Position numbers and translations under genes: made by a program
Source: Natrialbaceae archaeon Tc-Br11_E2g14
GTDB lineage: Archaea; Halobacteriota; Halobacteria; Halobacteriales; Natrialbaceae
DNA: 43,544 nt
Direction: 5' to 3'
Assembly (NCBI GenBank): GCA_001564275.1
Contig: LKND01000013.1
Coordinates: 1 to 43,544, forward strand
The notes under the pieces: generated by a model
Told to the model about the DNA's origin: nothing
Databases searched by the model: none
Seen by the model: only the letters and a program-made list of their open reading frames with translations
In this document: one piece after another, positions 6,693 through 39,450 of the stretch
Numbering within the stretch: position 1 is the stretch's first letter
Layout of the letters: each line of letters starts with the position of its first letter

Positions 6693-7906
6693 AGGTGATC
6701 CCTCACGCTGGTGATGATCCGCTCGTCTGAGCAGGTGTCGACCTCGTCGTCGGGTCCGGGGAGACGGATGTGCCCGCCGCGTCGGCCGACGTCGTACGCC
6801 GTCTCGATCCCGAGGTCGCGGGCGACGGCCTCGAGAGTCGATCCGAGCGATCGATCCCCCCGGGTCCGAATGGCGGCCTCGTCGTTGCCGATGACGAGTG
6901 TCGTTGGCTCCGGCGAGCGGTAGGCCGACACCAGGCGCGCGACCGTTCGAACGGGGCCATCGTCGATACCGACGGCGAAGAGGCCGTCGTACCGACCGGT
7001 CGACGCCCCCTCGATCGCCGTGTGCGCCCGTCGCCCACAGGCGCGCCAGGCATCGAGGGCCGACGTCGAGACGTCGTGGCCCATCGCGAGGGCCACACCG
7101 GTTCCCGGCTCGCAATCGGCAGTCGCCCGGAGGACGTCGGCATACCCCTCGAGCGTCACGAAGGGGACACTCCCGTCCGCCCCAGTGATCGCGTAGGGGT
7201 GCAGGAATCGACCGATCGCGGTCGCGGCGTGCTCGCTCGCCGCCGGATCCCCGACAGCCTCGAGTGCGACCAGCGACCCGATCGTCCGGTGATCGACGTC
7301 GCCATCCGTCGGGGCCGCCGGTACGGCTTCGAGTAACGCCGCGACGGCGTCCTCGTCCCCCGACCAGGGGGCCAGACACGCACCCGTGTGCGCAAGTCCG
7401 TCGACCATATCCGTCGTCGGCACGCCGACACCGGGTCGGCGCTCGATGAGGGGGTCGTCTCCAGCCAGGGCCCGCTCGAGGAGCCACTCCGTTTCGCCGG
7501 CTCCAGGGTCGATCCCCGCGGCTACGGTACCGGCGAGGGTCAACAGCGGATCGCCCGTGGCCTCGAGCGTCTTGAGGTGGTCGGCGACAGCGAGGGTCGC
7601 CGGCCGATCCGTGGCTGCGATGGAGAGGTGGGTTTCGGCTGTCGTCCCCGGATCCGTCTCCGAGTGGTCGTGCGGCCCGATCGCAACCGTCACGCCCTCG
7701 ATCTCCTCCTGCAGACGAGCGGTTCGGTCGCCGATCGTCGCGCCGGTAGTGATCTGAAACGGCGTCCCGTCTCGAGCGAGGGCTCTCGCGAGCAACCCCG
7801 CGGCAGCGATGGCGTCGCCGTCGGCCCGCGTGACGATGCGAACGAACTCGCCACTGCGGAGCACGTCGGCGTCGGTTGCCGTCGAGACGGTGCCGTCTGG
7901 TGTCAT
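6689..7906 (-). CDS. DHH-family (RecJ/Cdc45-like) protein, probably catalytically degenerate
   Basis: 405 residues starting MTPDGTVSTATDADVLRSGE, 4 bases after rps15. The N-terminal IVTRADGDAIAAAGLLARAL aligns in shape with DHH motif I (hxHxDxDGxxSAxxL) but lacks the histidine; HDHSE at ~79-83 stands where DHH should be; RRGGHIRLPG near the C-terminus recalls the DHHA1 GGGHxxAAG loop. Archaeal RecJ-like proteins act as nucleases or as Cdc45-like partners of GINS. Loss of several metal ligands suggests a structural role, which is inference. It is the second gene of the operon rps15 - this gene - pcc1 - rps3ae. Confidence 0.78.
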   Translation of the reverse strand: MTPDGTVSTATDADVLRSGEFVRIVTRADGDAIAAAGLLARALARDGTPFQITTGATIGDRTARLQEEIEGVTVAIGPHDHSETDPGTTAETHLSIAATDRPATLAVADHLKTLEATGDPLLTLAGTVAAGIDPGAGETEWLLERALAGDDPLIERRPGVGVPTTDMVDGLAHTGACLAPWSGDEDAVAALLEAVPAAPTDGDVDHRTIGSLVALEAVGDPAASEHAATAIGRFLHPYAITGADGSVPFVTLEGYADVLRATADCEPGTGVALAMGHDVSTSALDAWRACGRRAHTAIEGASTGRYDGLFAVGIDDGPVRTVARLVSAYRSPEPTTLVIGNDEAAIRTRGDRSLGSTLEAVARDLGIETAYDVGRRGGHIRLPGPDDEVDTCSDERIITSVRDHL

Positions 7907-10908: not shown

Positions 10909-10967
10909 ACGGGCGACTTCGGACCTCGAGGAAATAACCCGACTGGTTCAATTACCGAAATAAACAA

Positions 10968-10989
10968 CCACGGGTCGGGTGACCCGTGG
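10968..10989. repeat. Left-end hairpin of the IS1341-type element
   Basis: CCACGGGTC pairs perfectly with GACCCGTGG around the loop GGGT. Subterminal hairpins like this are the recognition structures of IS200/IS605 Y1 transposases. Confidence 0.75.
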
Positions 10990-11129
10990 CTTTTGTAATT
11001 CCCTCAGCCTATGCCGATAGCACTCCACGCGAAGCGATTTCGCGGGATGAGGGTGGGCGGTTTACAGAGCGCCCCGACCCAGACAGCCTCACCTTCCGAA
11101 CAAACGGTTGGGTTTTGCTGAATCGAGGC

Positions 11130-11180
11130 GCTAAGCCCCCTTCCTCAGCGAGCGCCGAAGGCGCGAGCAGGGAGGGGATA
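11130..11180. repeat. Right-end-like structure located upstream of tnpB
   Basis: AAGCCCCCTTCCTC ... GCGCC-GAA-GGCGC ... GAGCAGGGAGGGGATA repeats the design of the true right end at 12817-12870 (AAGCCCCACCCTC, inner hairpin, GAGTAGGGTGGGGTA). It could be the right end of an older or miniature element into which the present one inserted, or an internal regulatory RNA structure. Confidence 0.55.
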
Positions 11181-11188
11181 CAGCGTCC

Positions 11189-11237
11189 CCAGAAATCTTC
11201 GATTTCTGGTGTGCGAACGAGACGCGGTACGTCTCGT
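11189..11237. repeat. Twin hairpin 1 (upstream of the RHH gene)
   Basis: Hairpin one: CCAGAAATC-TTC-GATTTCTGG (11189-11209), 9 perfect pairs. After 7 bases comes hairpin two: ACGAGACG-CGGTA-CGTCTCGT (11217-11237), 8 perfect pairs. Both arms are related to those of twin hairpin 2 inside tnpB, but in the opposite order. Confidence 0.8.
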
Positions 11238-11306
11238 CAACGCCGCGAGAGGTTCTTGGACTATACTACCGCAGGCCCACAGGCCCACGAAACCAGAAGT
11301 GTTTTG

Positions 11307-11321
11307 TATGCAAATTGCATA
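11307..11321. promoter_or_regulatory. 15-bp palindrome upstream of the RHH-tnpB genes (possible operator)
   Basis: TATGCAA-A-TTGCATA has perfect 7-bp arms and ends 9 bases before the ATG at 11331. RHH proteins bind such short dyads, so autoregulation by the adjacent small protein is a reasonable inference. A second palindrome of the same 7-1-7 design lies before the other tnpB at 43103. Confidence 0.5.
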
Positions 11322-11330
11322 AGTTATGAC

Positions 11331-11456
11331 ATGGCAACGCGAAAGACCATTTCAATCCGAGACGACCAAGAGGAGTGGATACAGGACAACCACCTGAATC
11401 TGTCGTCGTTCGTTCAGGAGAAACTCGACGAGCTCATCGAAGAACGCGAAAACTGA
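11331..11456 (+). CDS. Small ribbon-helix-helix protein of the IS1341-type element
   Basis: 41 residues: the N-terminal RKTISIRDDQEEWIQDNH is a strand followed by a helix, then NLSSFVQEKLDELIEE forms a second helix, the classic RHH/CopG/MetJ arrangement of small DNA-binding repressors. Its TGA overlaps the tnpB ATG by one base (TGATG), so the two genes are translationally coupled. Small proteins of this type are found before tnpB in haloarchaeal IS1341-type elements; a regulatory role over tnpB is inference. The frame is open further upstream, but that part is low-complexity and lies over the twin hairpin, so the ATG at 11331 is preferred. Confidence 0.75.
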   Translation: MATRKTISIRDDQEEWIQDNHLNLSSFVQEKLDELIEEREN

Positions 11457-11904
11457 TGTATCACGCCTACAAGTATCGCCTCGAGCCATCCGACGCCCAA
11501 CGCGAGGAGTTGGACCGTCACCGCGATATCTGTAGGCAACTGTACAATCACACTCGCTATCGCCTCAACGAGTACCGAGAGAACCACGGCGAACTACCGT
11601 CCATAACCACGCTTCGGTCGGAGCTACCTGACCTCAAAAAGTGGTGGGACGACCTCAATGACGTGTACTCGAAGCTACTCCAAACTGTGGTCGAACGACT
11701 GTTCGACAACCTCAGTAGCCTTTCTGCGCTCAAGCAAAACGGCTACGGAGTCGGCCAACTCAAGTGGAAGCTACCACGCGAGTTCCGCAGTTTCACGTAC
11801 AACCAGTCTGGCTTCAAGCTCGACAAGAAGGGCGGTCAGACTGTCTTGTCCTCTCGAAACTTGCGGACATACCGATCCGGCTCCACCGAGAGATTCCCGA
11901 CGTT

Positions 11905-11954
11905 CACGAGAGCGACAGCTCTCGTGCAGCCCATCAGAAATCTCCGATTTCTGA
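11905..11954. repeat. Twin hairpin 2, in frame inside tnpB
   Basis: CACGAGAGC-GACA-GCTCTCGTG (11905-11926), 9 perfect pairs, then 7 bases, then TCAGAAATC-TCC-GATTTCTGA (11934-11954), 9 perfect pairs. The block 11902-11958 adds about 19 codons (VHESDSSRAAHQKSPISED) between REIPD and DAALKQVTL without breaking the frame. Confidence 0.82.
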
Positions 11955-12587
11955 GGACGACGCCGCACTCAAACAGGTCACGCTCAAGAAGGAGCCAACG
12001 GGAGAGTGGTTCGCCACCTTCGGTGTCGAAATCGACCGAGAGCCACCGCAAAAGCCCGACCAGCCGAAGAACGTCGTCGGTATCGACGTGGGCATCCTGA
12101 AGTACGCCCAGGACACCGACGGTCACGCGATTGAATCGGTCGACCTCTCGGACGAACGCGATCGACTCGAACGAGAGCAACGGAAACTCTCGCGCAAAGA
12201 ACACGGGTCGAACAACTACGAGAAGCAACGCCGCCGAGTGGCCGAATGCCATGCTGACCTGACGCGAAAGCGCCGGGACTTTTTGCACAAACTCTCGAAC
12301 TACTACGCTCGAGAGTACGATCTCGTGGCCGTCGAAGACCTTGACGCGAAAGGATTGATCCAACTTGACGGCAACTCTCGGAACCGTGCTGGAGCAGCGT
12401 GGGGGATGTTCTTGCGGATGCTCGAGTACAAGTGCGAACGCGAGAGTACGCATTTCGTGGCTGTCGATCCGGCTGGAACGACCAAAGAGTGTGCGGCTTG
12501 CGGTGTGTCGAGCGAGAAACCGCTGTGGGTCCGCGAACACTCGTGTCCGTCGTGCGGGTTCACCGCTGATCGGGACTGGAATGCGGT

Positions 12588-12629
12588 CGTCAGACGTAGT
12601 CTGACGGGCAGCAAACGCGTAGCGTTTGC
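12588..12629. repeat. Twin hairpin 3, in frame inside tnpB
   Basis: CGTCAGAC-GTA-GTCTGACG (12588-12606), then 4 bases, then GCAAACGC-GTA-GCGTTTGC (12611-12629); both stems have 8 perfect pairs. The block 12586-12633 (48 bases) encodes VVRRSLTGSKRVAFAT, which splits the usual DRDWNA-(A)-WNILSRG region of TnpB. Confidence 0.82.
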
Positions 12630-12696
12630 GACGGCGTGGAACATTCTTTCTCGCGGGATCAAGCAGGTAGGGGCGGGACGCTCCGAATCAACGTCC

Positions 12697-12745
12697 TCAG
12701 AATCGAAAGATTCTGATGGCCTGTGAAAATCGCTGTGCGATTTTC
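12697..12745. repeat. Twin hairpin 4, spanning the tnpB stop codon
   Basis: TCAGAATC-GAAA-GATTCTGA (12697-12716), 8 pairs, then 8 bases, then GAAAATCGC-TGT-GCGATTTTC (12725-12745), 9 pairs. The first hairpin encodes the last residues of TnpB (SESKDSDGL) and the second starts at the stop codon, within the region expected to give the guide RNA. Confidence 0.8.
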
Positions 12746-12876
12746 GAACGCCTGTGGAGACTGCGCTCCCTACGGGAACCACTTCGGTTCCTGCAAAGCG
12801 CGTCCTCGAAGCAGGAAGCCCCACCCTCAAGGAGCGAACGGCGTCAGCCGTGAGCGAGTAGGGTGGGGTAGTTCAC
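12746..12876 (+). ncRNA. Candidate right-end (omega) guide RNA scaffold
   Basis: The non-coding right end folds into GGAACC-ACTTC-GGTTCC (12775-12791), an alternative stem TTCCTGC/GCAGGAA (12788-12794 with 12811-12817), and a terminal two-part structure: outer stem CCCCACCCT (12819-12827) with AGGGTGGGG (12860-12868), inner hairpin ACGGC-GTCA-GCCGT (12838-12851). TnpB guide RNAs cover the 3' end of tnpB plus the right end and take their guide from the flanking DNA. The guide here would start at about 12877, inside the 3' end of the SafE-like gene. The role is inferred from the family; the start of the RNA is unknown. Confidence 0.6.
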
Positions 12877-17297: not shown

Positions 17298-17370
17298 ACC
17301 TGGCAGTTGGTCGGCCGGTCGAAAAGTCCACCGTTCGCGGTTGTGTTGGTCGTGACGGTGGTGCGGTAGC

Positions 17371-17466
17371 GGTGATCGCGGTAGCGGTCGTGACGGTGAT
17401 CGCGGTAGCGGTCGTGACGGTGATCGCGGTAGCGGTCGTGACGGTGATCGCGGTAGCGGTCGTGAC
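17371..17466. repeat. Four perfect copies of a 24-bp tandem repeat
   Basis: Units at 17371-17394, 17395-17418, 17419-17442 and 17443-17466 are identical; each begins GGTGATCGCGG and ends CGGTCGTGAC. A decayed partial copy precedes them (17348-17370). The array starts about 75 bases upstream of the surE start codon. The rest of the 495-base gap (17298-17792) shows no gene; CTGATCGGTCGTGG / CTGATCGATCGTGG at 17490-17522 is another small direct repeat. Confidence 0.9.
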
Positions 17467-17792
17467 GGTGGTTGAACTGTGCAGGAAGCCCTGATCGGTC
17501 GTGGGGCCCTGATCGATCGTGGCCGGCACTGAACAGACGCGGCTGGCCGGCTGGGTGGGTTTCCCGGGGCGTCAATAGCTTGCCTCACCGGGGCCACGAA
17601 GCCAGATGTGCTCCTCGAGGGTCCCTCCGCCAATGGACACGGGCCGAACCACGAGTTCACCTCCGCACACCGATTACTACAGCCCGATCGGCATCTGTGG
17701 ACGTCACATCGGCTCACTGGTGCCTTACCCCGTACTCATGACCTGCCGATTGCCGACACGCGGCTGGCGGCCGGCGGGACGGCCCCCCTCCC

Positions 17793-29201: not shown

Positions 29202-29981
29202 ATGGTCGACGTCCTCGACAACAAACGCGCGGCAACGCGATTTCGGATTCTCGTCGAAATCGCCGAGCGCCAGCCCGCCGTCAGCCAGGGTGAGATCGCC
29301 GGGGAGGTCGGAGTGACGAGTCAGGCCGTCAGTGAGTACATTCGGGAACTCGTCGACGATGGATTCGTCGAGAAGGAGGGACGGTCTCGCTACCGCGTGA
29401 CGAACGAGGGCGTCGACTGGCTCTTTCAGGCCGCCGCCGACGTTCGCCGGTTCGCCGATCACGTCACCGAGGACGTCCTGGGCGCGATGAGCGAGGACGC
29501 CGCCATCGCGACCGACACCCTCGAGATCGGCGACACCGTCTCGCTCACCCTCGAGAACGGCCTGCTCCACGCTAGCCCCGGTGGCGAGGGGCCCGCAACG
29601 GGCGTCGCCACGACCGACGCCGACGGTGGACAGGACGTCGGCGTCACGAGTTTTGAGGGCGTGATCGACCTCGAGCCAGGGTTCGTGACGGTCTGGCAGG
29701 TCCCACCGGTACGGGCCGGCGGCAGCGACGCCGCCGGCATGGATTCGATCGCTTCGGGGTGTGGGGCGACCGACCTCGTCCTGGCGACGGGCATCGAGGC
29801 CATCGTGACCCTCGAGCGGGCGGGCGTCGACCCGGCGACGACGTTCGCGGTGGGGAGTGTCGCTGCGCACGCTGCCGAACGTGGCCTCGACGTGGCCGTC
29901 GTCGCCACCACGGACGCTGTGGGTCGTGTGACCGACGTACTCCGTGACGGTGACGTGGCGTACGAGGTCCTCGAGGCGTAG
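29202..29981 (+). CDS. Winged-helix transcriptional regulator with C-terminal sensor-like domain
   Basis: 259 residues. Residues ~8-75 are a MarR-like winged helix (RFRILVEIAERQPAVSQGEI, VTSQAVSEYIRELVDDGFVE, KEGRSRYRVTNEGVDWLF). Residues ~105-259 form a separate alpha/beta domain rich in Val, Ala and Gly that ends in AERGLDVAVVATTDAVGRVT; it may bind a ligand, but I do not recognise it. It is divergent from artA (279-base gap, no gene), which could be its target; that is inference only. Confidence 0.82.
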   Translation: MVDVLDNKRAATRFRILVEIAERQPAVSQGEIAGEVGVTSQAVSEYIRELVDDGFVEKEGRSRYRVTNEGVDWLFQAAADVRRFADHVTEDVLGAMSEDAAIATDTLEIGDTVSLTLENGLLHASPGGEGPATGVATTDADGGQDVGVTSFEGVIDLEPGFVTVWQVPPVRAGGSDAAGMDSIASGCGATDLVLATGIEAIVTLERAGVDPATTFAVGSVAAHAAERGLDVAVVATTDAVGRVTDVLRDGDVAYEVLEA

Positions 29982-31925: not shown

Positions 31926-32726
31926 TTACTCGTCGTCGGTCCGTCGCTCCCGGTGGTACTCGCCATCGCCACCCTCGCCTTCGATGGCCTCGACGGCGCG
32001 CTGGGCACTCTCCTCGAGGGCGGCCTCGGCCGCCTTGTAGTTGGGTGCACGGACCTTGATTCGGTACTCTGGGGCACCGACGTACGTCACCTCGAGTTCG
32101 ACGCCCTCTGGCACCTCGCCGTTACCTTCGGCGGCCTCGAGGGCGCTTTTGACGCCATCGACACCACTCGGTGAGGGGTTTTCGAGGTCGACGTAGCCGG
32201 TGACGTTCACGTAGGGGACCGAGACGTTTTCGCGGGCAGTTTCGACGATGGCTTCCCGGTCGGCCTCGGGCAGGTCGGTGTCCTCGAGGGCCTCGTGGCC
32301 GTGGATGGCGGCCTGCTTGAAGCCGTCGTAGAGGGTCCCGTACGCCGAGAGCAGTTCGTTCGCGATCGAGATGTACTCGTCGTCGTCGATATCCTCGCCG
32401 AAGGCGACCTCCATCCAGTTGTCGGCCTTCTGCTCGTTTTTCCACTCCTGGATCTTATCGGAGCGCTGGTGGTCGTTGACGTCCTTCAACGAGAGGTCGA
32501 TCTGTTCGTGGGACTCGTCGACGTCCAGCACCTTGCAGACGGCGATCTGACCCTCGCGGACGTGGTCGCGGACGTTCTTGATCCAGCCGCTTGCGACCTC
32601 TGAGATGTGGATCAGGCCGCGTTTGTCCTGATACTCCTCGAGGTCGACGAAGACGCCGAAGTCCTCGATCTCGTCGATCTTGCCGACGACGAGTTCGCCG
32701 GGCTCGGGCCAGCCGCTGTACTTCAT
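31926..32726 (-). CDS. eif2a: Translation initiation factor aIF2, alpha subunit
   Basis: 266 residues. [20 protein letters not shown] opens an S1 domain (residues ~10-85, with [20 protein letters not shown]), followed by the helical domain and a C-terminal alpha/beta domain ([20 protein letters not shown]). With beta and gamma subunits it brings initiator tRNA to the ribosome. Its ATG overlaps the TGA of rps27e (ATGA). A perfect twin hairpin in the end of rps27e ends 17 bases before this ATG in the mRNA and may affect coupling. Confidence 0.97.
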
Positions 32727-32941
32727 CGTGCTTCGACGGTGTCACCGGACTGCGTCCGGTTTGTCGTGGAGCGTTGCTCCACGCACTCGATGATTTCGTG
32801 GTCGATCTCGGCCTTGCCGCCGGTCGGGACGGCCAGGGTGGTGCCACAGACGGCACAGGCGACTTCCGTCGCAGCCTTGCCGAAGACGATCTGTTCGTTC
32901 TCACAGTCACTGCAGCGGACGTTGTAGTATGATCCTGCCAT
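32723..32941 (-). CDS. rps27e: Small ribosomal subunit protein eS27, with in-frame insertion near the C-terminus
   Basis: 72 residues. [20 protein letters not shown] and [19 protein letters not shown] contain the CxxC...CxxC zinc finger and the usual S27e core. Relatives I know are about 57 residues and end ...E(V/T)VEAR. Here the sequence reads [25 protein letters not shown]: 15 extra codons between the conserved E and TVEAR. The extra 45 bases (32741-32785) are two perfect hairpins. The frame is kept and the protein's normal end is intact. Start at 32941, 5 bases after the rpl44e stop; the stop overlaps the aIF2-alpha start. Confidence 0.95.
32744..32783. repeat. Twin hairpin 5, in frame inside rps27e
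   Basis: Plus-strand reading: ACCGGAC-TGC-GTCCGGT (32744-32760), 7 perfect pairs, then 4 bases, then CGTGGAGC-GTT-GCTCCACG (32765-32783), 8 perfect pairs. Same design as twin hairpin 3 in tnpB (two stems, 3-base loops, 4-base gap). It encodes most of the extra 15 residues of S27e. Confidence 0.85.
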
Positions 32942-32946
32942 GATAC

Positions 32947-33231
32947 TCACTCCTGGAACTCGAGGCGGCCGGCGCGCCATCCCTTGCGGAGGTGGGCCTT
33001 CCCACACTCGCCACAGCGGTACTTGAGGTCGGTCTTCTTCGTAGGTTTGTCACCGCTGGGGACCTTCGAGAACTTCCCGGAGTTTCCGATGCTCGAGAGC
33101 TGTCGGGCACGCTGACGGTCGGCGACCTTCTTCATGCCGGTCTGTCGGCCGGTTCGCACCTTCTCGACCTCGTGTTCGTAGTGGCCGTGGCAGTGCGGGC
33201 AGTACGTGTTGAATCGGCGTGGCATCTGCAT
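32947..33231 (-). CDS. rpl44e: Large ribosomal subunit protein eL42 (L44e)
   Basis: 94 residues starting [20 protein letters not shown], with the zinc-binding CPHC and CGEC pairs and the central [17 protein letters not shown] typical of archaeal L44e. It lies near the E site of the 50S subunit. It is the first gene of the operon continuing to rps27e, eif2a, nop10 and the PAC2 gene. A TATA box 32-39 bases upstream supports the start. Confidence 0.97.
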
Positions 33232-39193: not shown

Positions 39194-39265
39194 ACCTGAA
39201 CCACGGTGATTCGACCATTAGAATTTTTCCAATGTGATCGGGGACGCTCGAGACCGATTCACGGC

Positions 39266-39335
39266 CGGTTACGGGCGGTCACGAGCAGTTACGAGCGGTC
39301 ACGAGCGGTCACGAGCGGTTACGAGCGGTCACCAG
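39266..39335. repeat. Seven near-identical 10-bp tandem units
   Basis: Units of CGGT(C/T)ACGAG follow each other without gaps from 39266 to 39335 (variants CGGTTACGGG, CAGTTACGAG, CGGTCACCAG); one more stands alone at 39345-39354. The array is in the 257-base gap between the membrane protein start and the end of the NAD-kinase-like gene. The 10-base period is close to one helical turn. Confidence 0.85.
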
Positions 39336-39450
39336 CGCAGCTGGCGGTCACGAGGGTGCTCGATCGGCCGTGAACGTCACCGCCTCGGGCTCGAACCCCG
39401 CTGGTCCGCCCGAGAACGTCGGCGGTACACTCGAGCCACCTGATCGGCGC

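Follow-up and report, generated by a model that had tools for sequence, protein, structure and literature searches.

The 45-nt segment close to the 3′ end of the ribosomal protein gene rps27e, within the 43.5-kb stretch of DNA analysed here (the window), is very probably one copy of a dispersed, non-autonomous haloarchaeal repeat of two hairpins, which enters protein-coding genes and persists where the roughly 15 codons that it contributes in frame do no harm. We refer to this repeat as the E-unit. The features of the locus are as follows (the names of the two flanking genes are our reading of the sequence).

31926–32726, minus strand: aIF2-alpha gene, native flank
32723–32941, minus strand: rps27e (eS27), 72 aa; its stop codon overlaps the start of the aIF2-alpha gene
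32741–32785, minus strand: 45-nt insert (E-unit) encoding 15 residues, absent in six of the six congeners with the gene
32765–32783, minus strand: hairpin 2 of the family model, 8-bp stem and 3-nt loop, first in coding order
32744–32760, minus strand: hairpin 1 of the family model, 7-bp stem and 3-nt loop, second in coding order
32947–33231, minus strand: rpl44e, native flank

The rps27e insert and its empty site in congeners

The insert adds its 15 codons in frame, and its two perfect hairpins are spaced by 4 nt. A sequence-only reading of the window had described just such twin hairpins (stems of 7 and 8 bp, 3-base loops, 4-base gap), and both this architecture and the coordinates it gave proved exact to the base. 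Five pairs of perfect hairpins occur in the window, compared with three summed over 20 dinucleotide shuffles; the other four of the five lie in a tnpB locus near 11–12.7 kb. Random synonymous versions of the insert, 200,000 in number and drawn with the codon usage of the window, yielded a 7+7-bp pair 59 times and stems totalling at least 15 bp nine times. The folding z-score of the 71-nt region was modest (−2.0; 5 of 200 shuffles folded equally well). No clear target duplication of the kind seen with MITEs flanks the insert, the best candidate being GAG vs GAC.

Long S27e tails first gave us the impression of an ordinary, lineage-specific C-terminal extension with hairpins as a by-product of its codons, and other haloarchaeal S27e extensions without such hairpin structure do exist (e.g., L078, L079 and L102). 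The recoding results, the occurrence of the unit as a family in unrelated genes, its single reading frame and a leave-out model that recognizes the insert with 62 bits (see below) overturned this explanation, which we now regard as extremely unlikely. A tandem duplication of the last 15 codons was dropped by eye; little besides TVEAR matches.

The S27e proteins of the Natronosalvus congeners G111–G115 and G117 have 57 aa, end in ETVE(S/A)R and are without exactly the 45 bases (6/6 with the gene found). Whether close relatives miss precisely this segment had been posed as a check by the sequence-only reading, and they do. G116, a genome of 66% completeness that gave no S27e match, stands outside this count. 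Among 125 genomes of the family searched, only the window and G120 matched over the full length with no stop interrupting the frame ahead of the tail, and the G120 tail differs from that of the window. A tree was built from the two flanking genes for 140 of the 192 S27e loci, after those with identical or unreadable flanks had been removed; it groups the window with G117 (SH-aLRT 96), and the flanks of rps27e are therefore native. At this site, the last strand would close with the VEQR of the unit where the native protein has TVESR, and the native TVEAR, pushed outward, would serve as the new C-terminus. AlphaFold2, run with an alignment of 31 sequences, gave a confident S27e core with its last strand at residues 49–57 and pLDDT values below 50 at residues 61–67, which is consistent with a flexible tail of predicted poor order. 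In solved eS27 chains, the match to the S27e profile reaches residue 57 at most. The tail may be a surface peptide that is tolerated and serves no necessary function.

The window belongs to a draft genome of 136 contigs with a completeness of 91%, whose origin from a metagenome we infer, and such a genome invites the question of an assembly error. The insert is, however, in frame, and the same site is filled in 12 other genomes. Moreover, the rps27e copy is the sole E-unit in its genome, both by strict pattern and by blastn, so there is no repeat that could have confused the assembler. We give hardly any credence to an assembly artefact.

E-units in other haloarchaeal genes

Copies of the E-unit were searched with the pattern GGACNNNGTCC, 3–8 nt, CGNGGAGCNNNGCTCC. 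It matched in 53 of 392 sampled Halobacteriales genomes, with up to 11 matches in one genome, and the reversed pattern gave no match in the same 392 genomes; these genomes and the listed loci are a sample rather than a full census. Besides the window, 69 loci were read (20 + 50, one repeating a known unit). With identical units counted once, there were 74 distinct matches, 65 of a 34-nt single form and nine of a 35-nt form; the latter mostly span two tandem units and do not enter the counts of frames and pairs. The rps27e unit has the architecture of the family, with stems of 8 and 7 bp, 3-nt loops and 4 nt between the hairpins.

One predicted frame (c1) is open through the unit in all 65 distinct single copies, that of the window included, and the peptide encoded in this frame resembles (V/A/E)ExxS(T/A/S)xxRTxSGD. 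About two dozen unrelated genes act as hosts. By BLASTP, the loci fall into 25 host clusters, which is a slight overcount with L380 and L388 clustered by the wrong frame. Pfam names for the hosts include Metallophos (Mre11-like by our own reading), Aconitase, DapB, ACAS_N + AMP-binding, PEPcase, HisKA/HATPase, PIN, molybdopterin oxidoreductase and Glyco_hydro_68. The domain match of the host often encloses the unit; an Aconitase match over residues 19–484 contains it near residue 261, and a PIN match over 28–158 contains it near residue 45. Set beside other members of their clusters, at least two hosts (L351 and L406) seem to lose the host reading downstream of the unit, so harmlessness does not extend to every copy. 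In the histidine kinases L376, L377, L379, L361 and L362, the 15-codon unit forms tandem arrays beside the N-box.

We built a covariance model (R1) from 59 E-units, all located in genes other than S27e. It matched the window unit at 32739–32788 with 62 bits (E 1.2e-14 for 43.5 kb; E-values are rough), aligned over model positions 1–50 of 50 with all 15 pairs formed. Two weak matches were also noted in the window, at 29790–29841 on the plus strand (20 bits, E 0.0012), where the ORF reads unlike the unit peptide, and at 7642–7699 on the minus strand (18 bits, E 0.004). Unconnected with the model, tandem repeats lie in the window at 17346–17489 (period of 24 bases) and 39261–39340 (period of 10 bases). 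The in-frame insertion of a palindromic element into an essential gene, as proposed by the sequence-only reading, is borne out by the empty site in the congeners, the multi-copy family and the one frame shared by many genes, and agrees with the predicted poor order of the tail.

Among the 59 non-S27e units, 98.5% of the pair cells are standard pairs. Changes on both sides of a pair were found in 68 cells, compared with a shuffled mean of 21.9 (none of 500 shuffles as high) and with at most 13 in slid controls. Three outer stem pairs vary on both sides. Covariation is visible at just these three because the search pattern allowed variation in the outer pairs alone and kept the inner stem bases constant. 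The closing pair, one of the three, joins base 2 of codon 1 with base 1 of codon 6. In the tally of pairs and tags, which took in 64 of the 65 distinct single units, the closing pair was T-A in 25, C-G in 21, A-T in 15 and T.G in three (61/64 Watson-Crick), and the coupled residues were V..T in 25, A..A in 19, E..S in 15, V..A in three and T..A in two. When each host cluster had one vote, the closing pair was Watson-Crick in 22 of 23 clusters, a value reached by none of 100,000 shuffles. Since both bases of the variable stem pairs change together and thereby couple residues, it is the pairing of a nucleic acid that is maintained in E-units, and not the peptide alone, as judged from the aligned copies.

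Stems preserved through paired changes would also be expected if the hairpins acted in RNA, tuning the translation of rps27e or coupling it to the overlapping aIF2-alpha start, and if they were kept for that; the position of the unit just before the overlapping start codon fits such a role. Other hosts, however, carry the unit inside coding regions, often in a domain match, so there is no common downstream start, and the operon of the congeners manages without it. We consider a role in RNA improbable. Following our reading as a mobile repeat, the unit would have moved as DNA, and selection would have removed copies that were out of frame or in protein cores. As for the route, our preferred guess is that an IS200/IS605-type (HUH) transposase works in trans on the hairpins and transposes the unit as a single strand.

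Tails at the S27e site and the tnpB locus

Including the window, an S27e tail at the same site was found in 13 genomes of four families (two in f1, three in f7, four in f14 and four in f17), and the whole 72-position S27e profile was matched in 12 of the 392 sampled genomes. The tails of the other 12 genomes are related to that of the window and mostly eroded. Against 28 chosen S27e loci, the model from non-S27e units scored 59.3, 53.9, 44.1 and 38.7 bits for the f17 tails and less elsewhere: 33.8 and 26.5 bits in f7, 21.8 and 16.9 in f14, and 21.1 in G120. Within these 28 loci, L050 (Halalkalicoccus paucihalophilus, f14), L118 and L122 gave no model match at the S27e tail, and the six congeners gave none at rps27e. 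The sequence-only reading had known of no such element in an archaeal ribosomal protein. The repeat in rps27e is confirmed, but its uniqueness does not hold, with related S27e tails in 12 more genomes. Despite these further tailed genomes, most related species do not carry the same segment without hairpins, the finding that had been named in advance as pointing to an ordinary C-terminal variant.

The tail might also have arrived with a piece of rps27e from a long-tailed haloarchaeon by homologous recombination rather than as a new insertion, in which case the identity of the repeat would still hold. The presence of a tail at one site in 13 genomes of four families speaks for such an exchange, as does its patchy distribution: on the flank tree, nine changes are needed and at least six are forced (a count that excludes L078 and L079, which are other kinds of S27e extension). 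On the other side, the flanking genes are native, and the window unit is nearest to units in a histidine-kinase gene and an EthD-type gene (43/50 and 42/50 identical), whereas the two f17 S27e units compared share 36/50 and 34/50 positions and rank 49 and 58 of 63. Taken together, we hold arrival by recombination to be rather unlikely. Because four families are occupied and the window copy is nonetheless closer to copies in other genes than to those in f17 S27e, we think that the S27e site was probably hit more than once, as a favoured site, with transfer or old inheritance as the less likely readings.

At 10960–12875 the window contains an IS605-type tnpB locus with a frame break near 11845 and four twin-hairpin insertions. 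Filled and empty sites were compared for the S27e and tnpB units only; the latter were aligned with seven plasmid TnpB loci, and the insertions were clean.

11189–11237, plus strand: unit A (CGTCC family), upstream of tnpB; absent from four comparable TnpB loci (L204, L205, L207 and L210)
11905–11954, minus strand: unit B (CGTCC family), inside tnpB; absent in six of seven TnpB loci, same site in L206 (Salinigranum marinum)
12588–12629, plus strand: unit C (compact family), inside tnpB; absent in seven of seven compared loci
12697–12745, plus strand: unit D (CGTCC family), near the tnpB 3′ end; absent in seven of seven compared loci

The loop of unit B (window 11934–11954) reads TCC vs GGA in L206, its reverse complement, as if the tip of the hairpin had been inverted. 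The CGTCC family matched in 102 of 125 Natrialbaceae genomes and the compact family in 51 of 125, and the reversed-pattern controls for the two families gave none among the matches listed. The first hairpin was perfect in 56 of the 73 distinct CGTCC copies read. In-frame CGTCC units occur in L308 (ORF matching tRNA-synt_1b), L292 (QRPTase) and L225 (siroheme decarboxylase domain), and further copies lie in transposase ORFs or in apparently intergenic DNA. In a TrpB-like ORF (our own reading), a second CGTCC unit apparently brings a stop. In L227, L228, L283, L286 and L294, the CGTCC units share one site after gcaaaaa, apparently between genes. Of the viral carriers considered, 23 contigs matched the CGTCC family, none with a second hairpin, and these matches were taken as chance. 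Membership of the rps27e unit in the CGTCC family was rejected, as it fails both the CGTCC tag and the CAGAA..TTCTG pattern of the first stem and has only the twin-hairpin architecture in common with it. Two compact tnpB-type units (L311 and L298) matched the E model weakly (26.8 and 26.6 bits), so the compact tnpB-type units may be distantly linked to the E-unit.

A broader view is that several twin-hairpin families enter housekeeping proteins in frame throughout the order, that the stem dictates which residues co-occur, that they spread through single-strand transposition with IS200/IS605-type enzymes and that rps27e was hit independently in several families. We advance this tentatively, as its likelihood falls somewhat short of even. 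If true, coding palindromes, with counterparts throughout the haloarchaeal order in genes such as rps27e, would represent a general way for proteins to acquire surface peptides. With V..T, A..A and E..S coupled by base pairing, E-units offer a clean and testable example of a nucleic-acid structure that shapes a protein sequence. Since haloarchaea are amenable to culture and manipulation, experiments can address the movement of such elements and the expression of their peptides, both long-standing questions. Work on haloarchaeal annotation, proteomics and phylogeny should allow for E-unit inserts.

Comparison with known systems

No in-frame palindromic elements in haloarchaeal genes were found among the matches listed in a search of open-licence literature by titles and the openings of abstracts. 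To the sequence-only reading, the present analysis adds the repeat family in non-ribosomal genes and the conserved stem pairing.

Double-hairpin elements of fungal mitochondria consist of two short adjacent hairpins and are described as mobile. They differ from E-units in residing in organelle genomes, and the likeness is one of architecture, drawn by description.

Among the haloarchaea themselves, PATEs and 52-bp core-deleted IS605 remnants of Haloquadratum are short and transposase-free, have two near-terminal palindromes and are perhaps mobile in some cases. Compared by description, and in the parts of the source available to us, they are, unlike E-units, not presented as in-frame coding inserts.

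The CGTC-tagged REP superfamily, as described by Di Nocera (2013), comprises short palindromes that carry an unpaired CGTC on one side; some of them lie in genes, and none has a dedicated transposase. Its members are reported for bacteria (five phyla), are mostly extragenic and have one hairpin per unit, with dimers, and loops of 4–5. A possible counterpart of this tag follows hairpin 1 in 50 of the 64 E-units, where GAC and then G or A correspond to CGTC (27 units) or TGTC (23) on the opposite strand, with other sequences in 14; the window unit has TGTC, the first T of which is host sequence. Unlike the mostly extragenic REPs, all 65 single E-unit copies lie in open frames.

According to PMC2996958, which cites Suyama, Lathe and Bork 2005, coding palindromes are also found in Wolbachia and in the archaeon Methanocaldococcus jannaschii. 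The palindromic elements of the latter resemble the E-unit in being archaeal and in having coding potential, although their host is a methanogen.

Finally, the Rickettsia palindromic elements are described as repeats of about 150 bp that lie in frame within a wide range of unrelated housekeeping genes, usually where the protein is unstructured. The sequence-only reading had likened the rps27e insert to them, and this likeness extends to the whole E-unit family, the copies of which stand in frame in many unrelated protein genes. In contrast, the E-unit is 45 bp long, forms two separate hairpins, keeps one fixed frame and belongs to haloarchaea, and the two are alike by description rather than by sequence.
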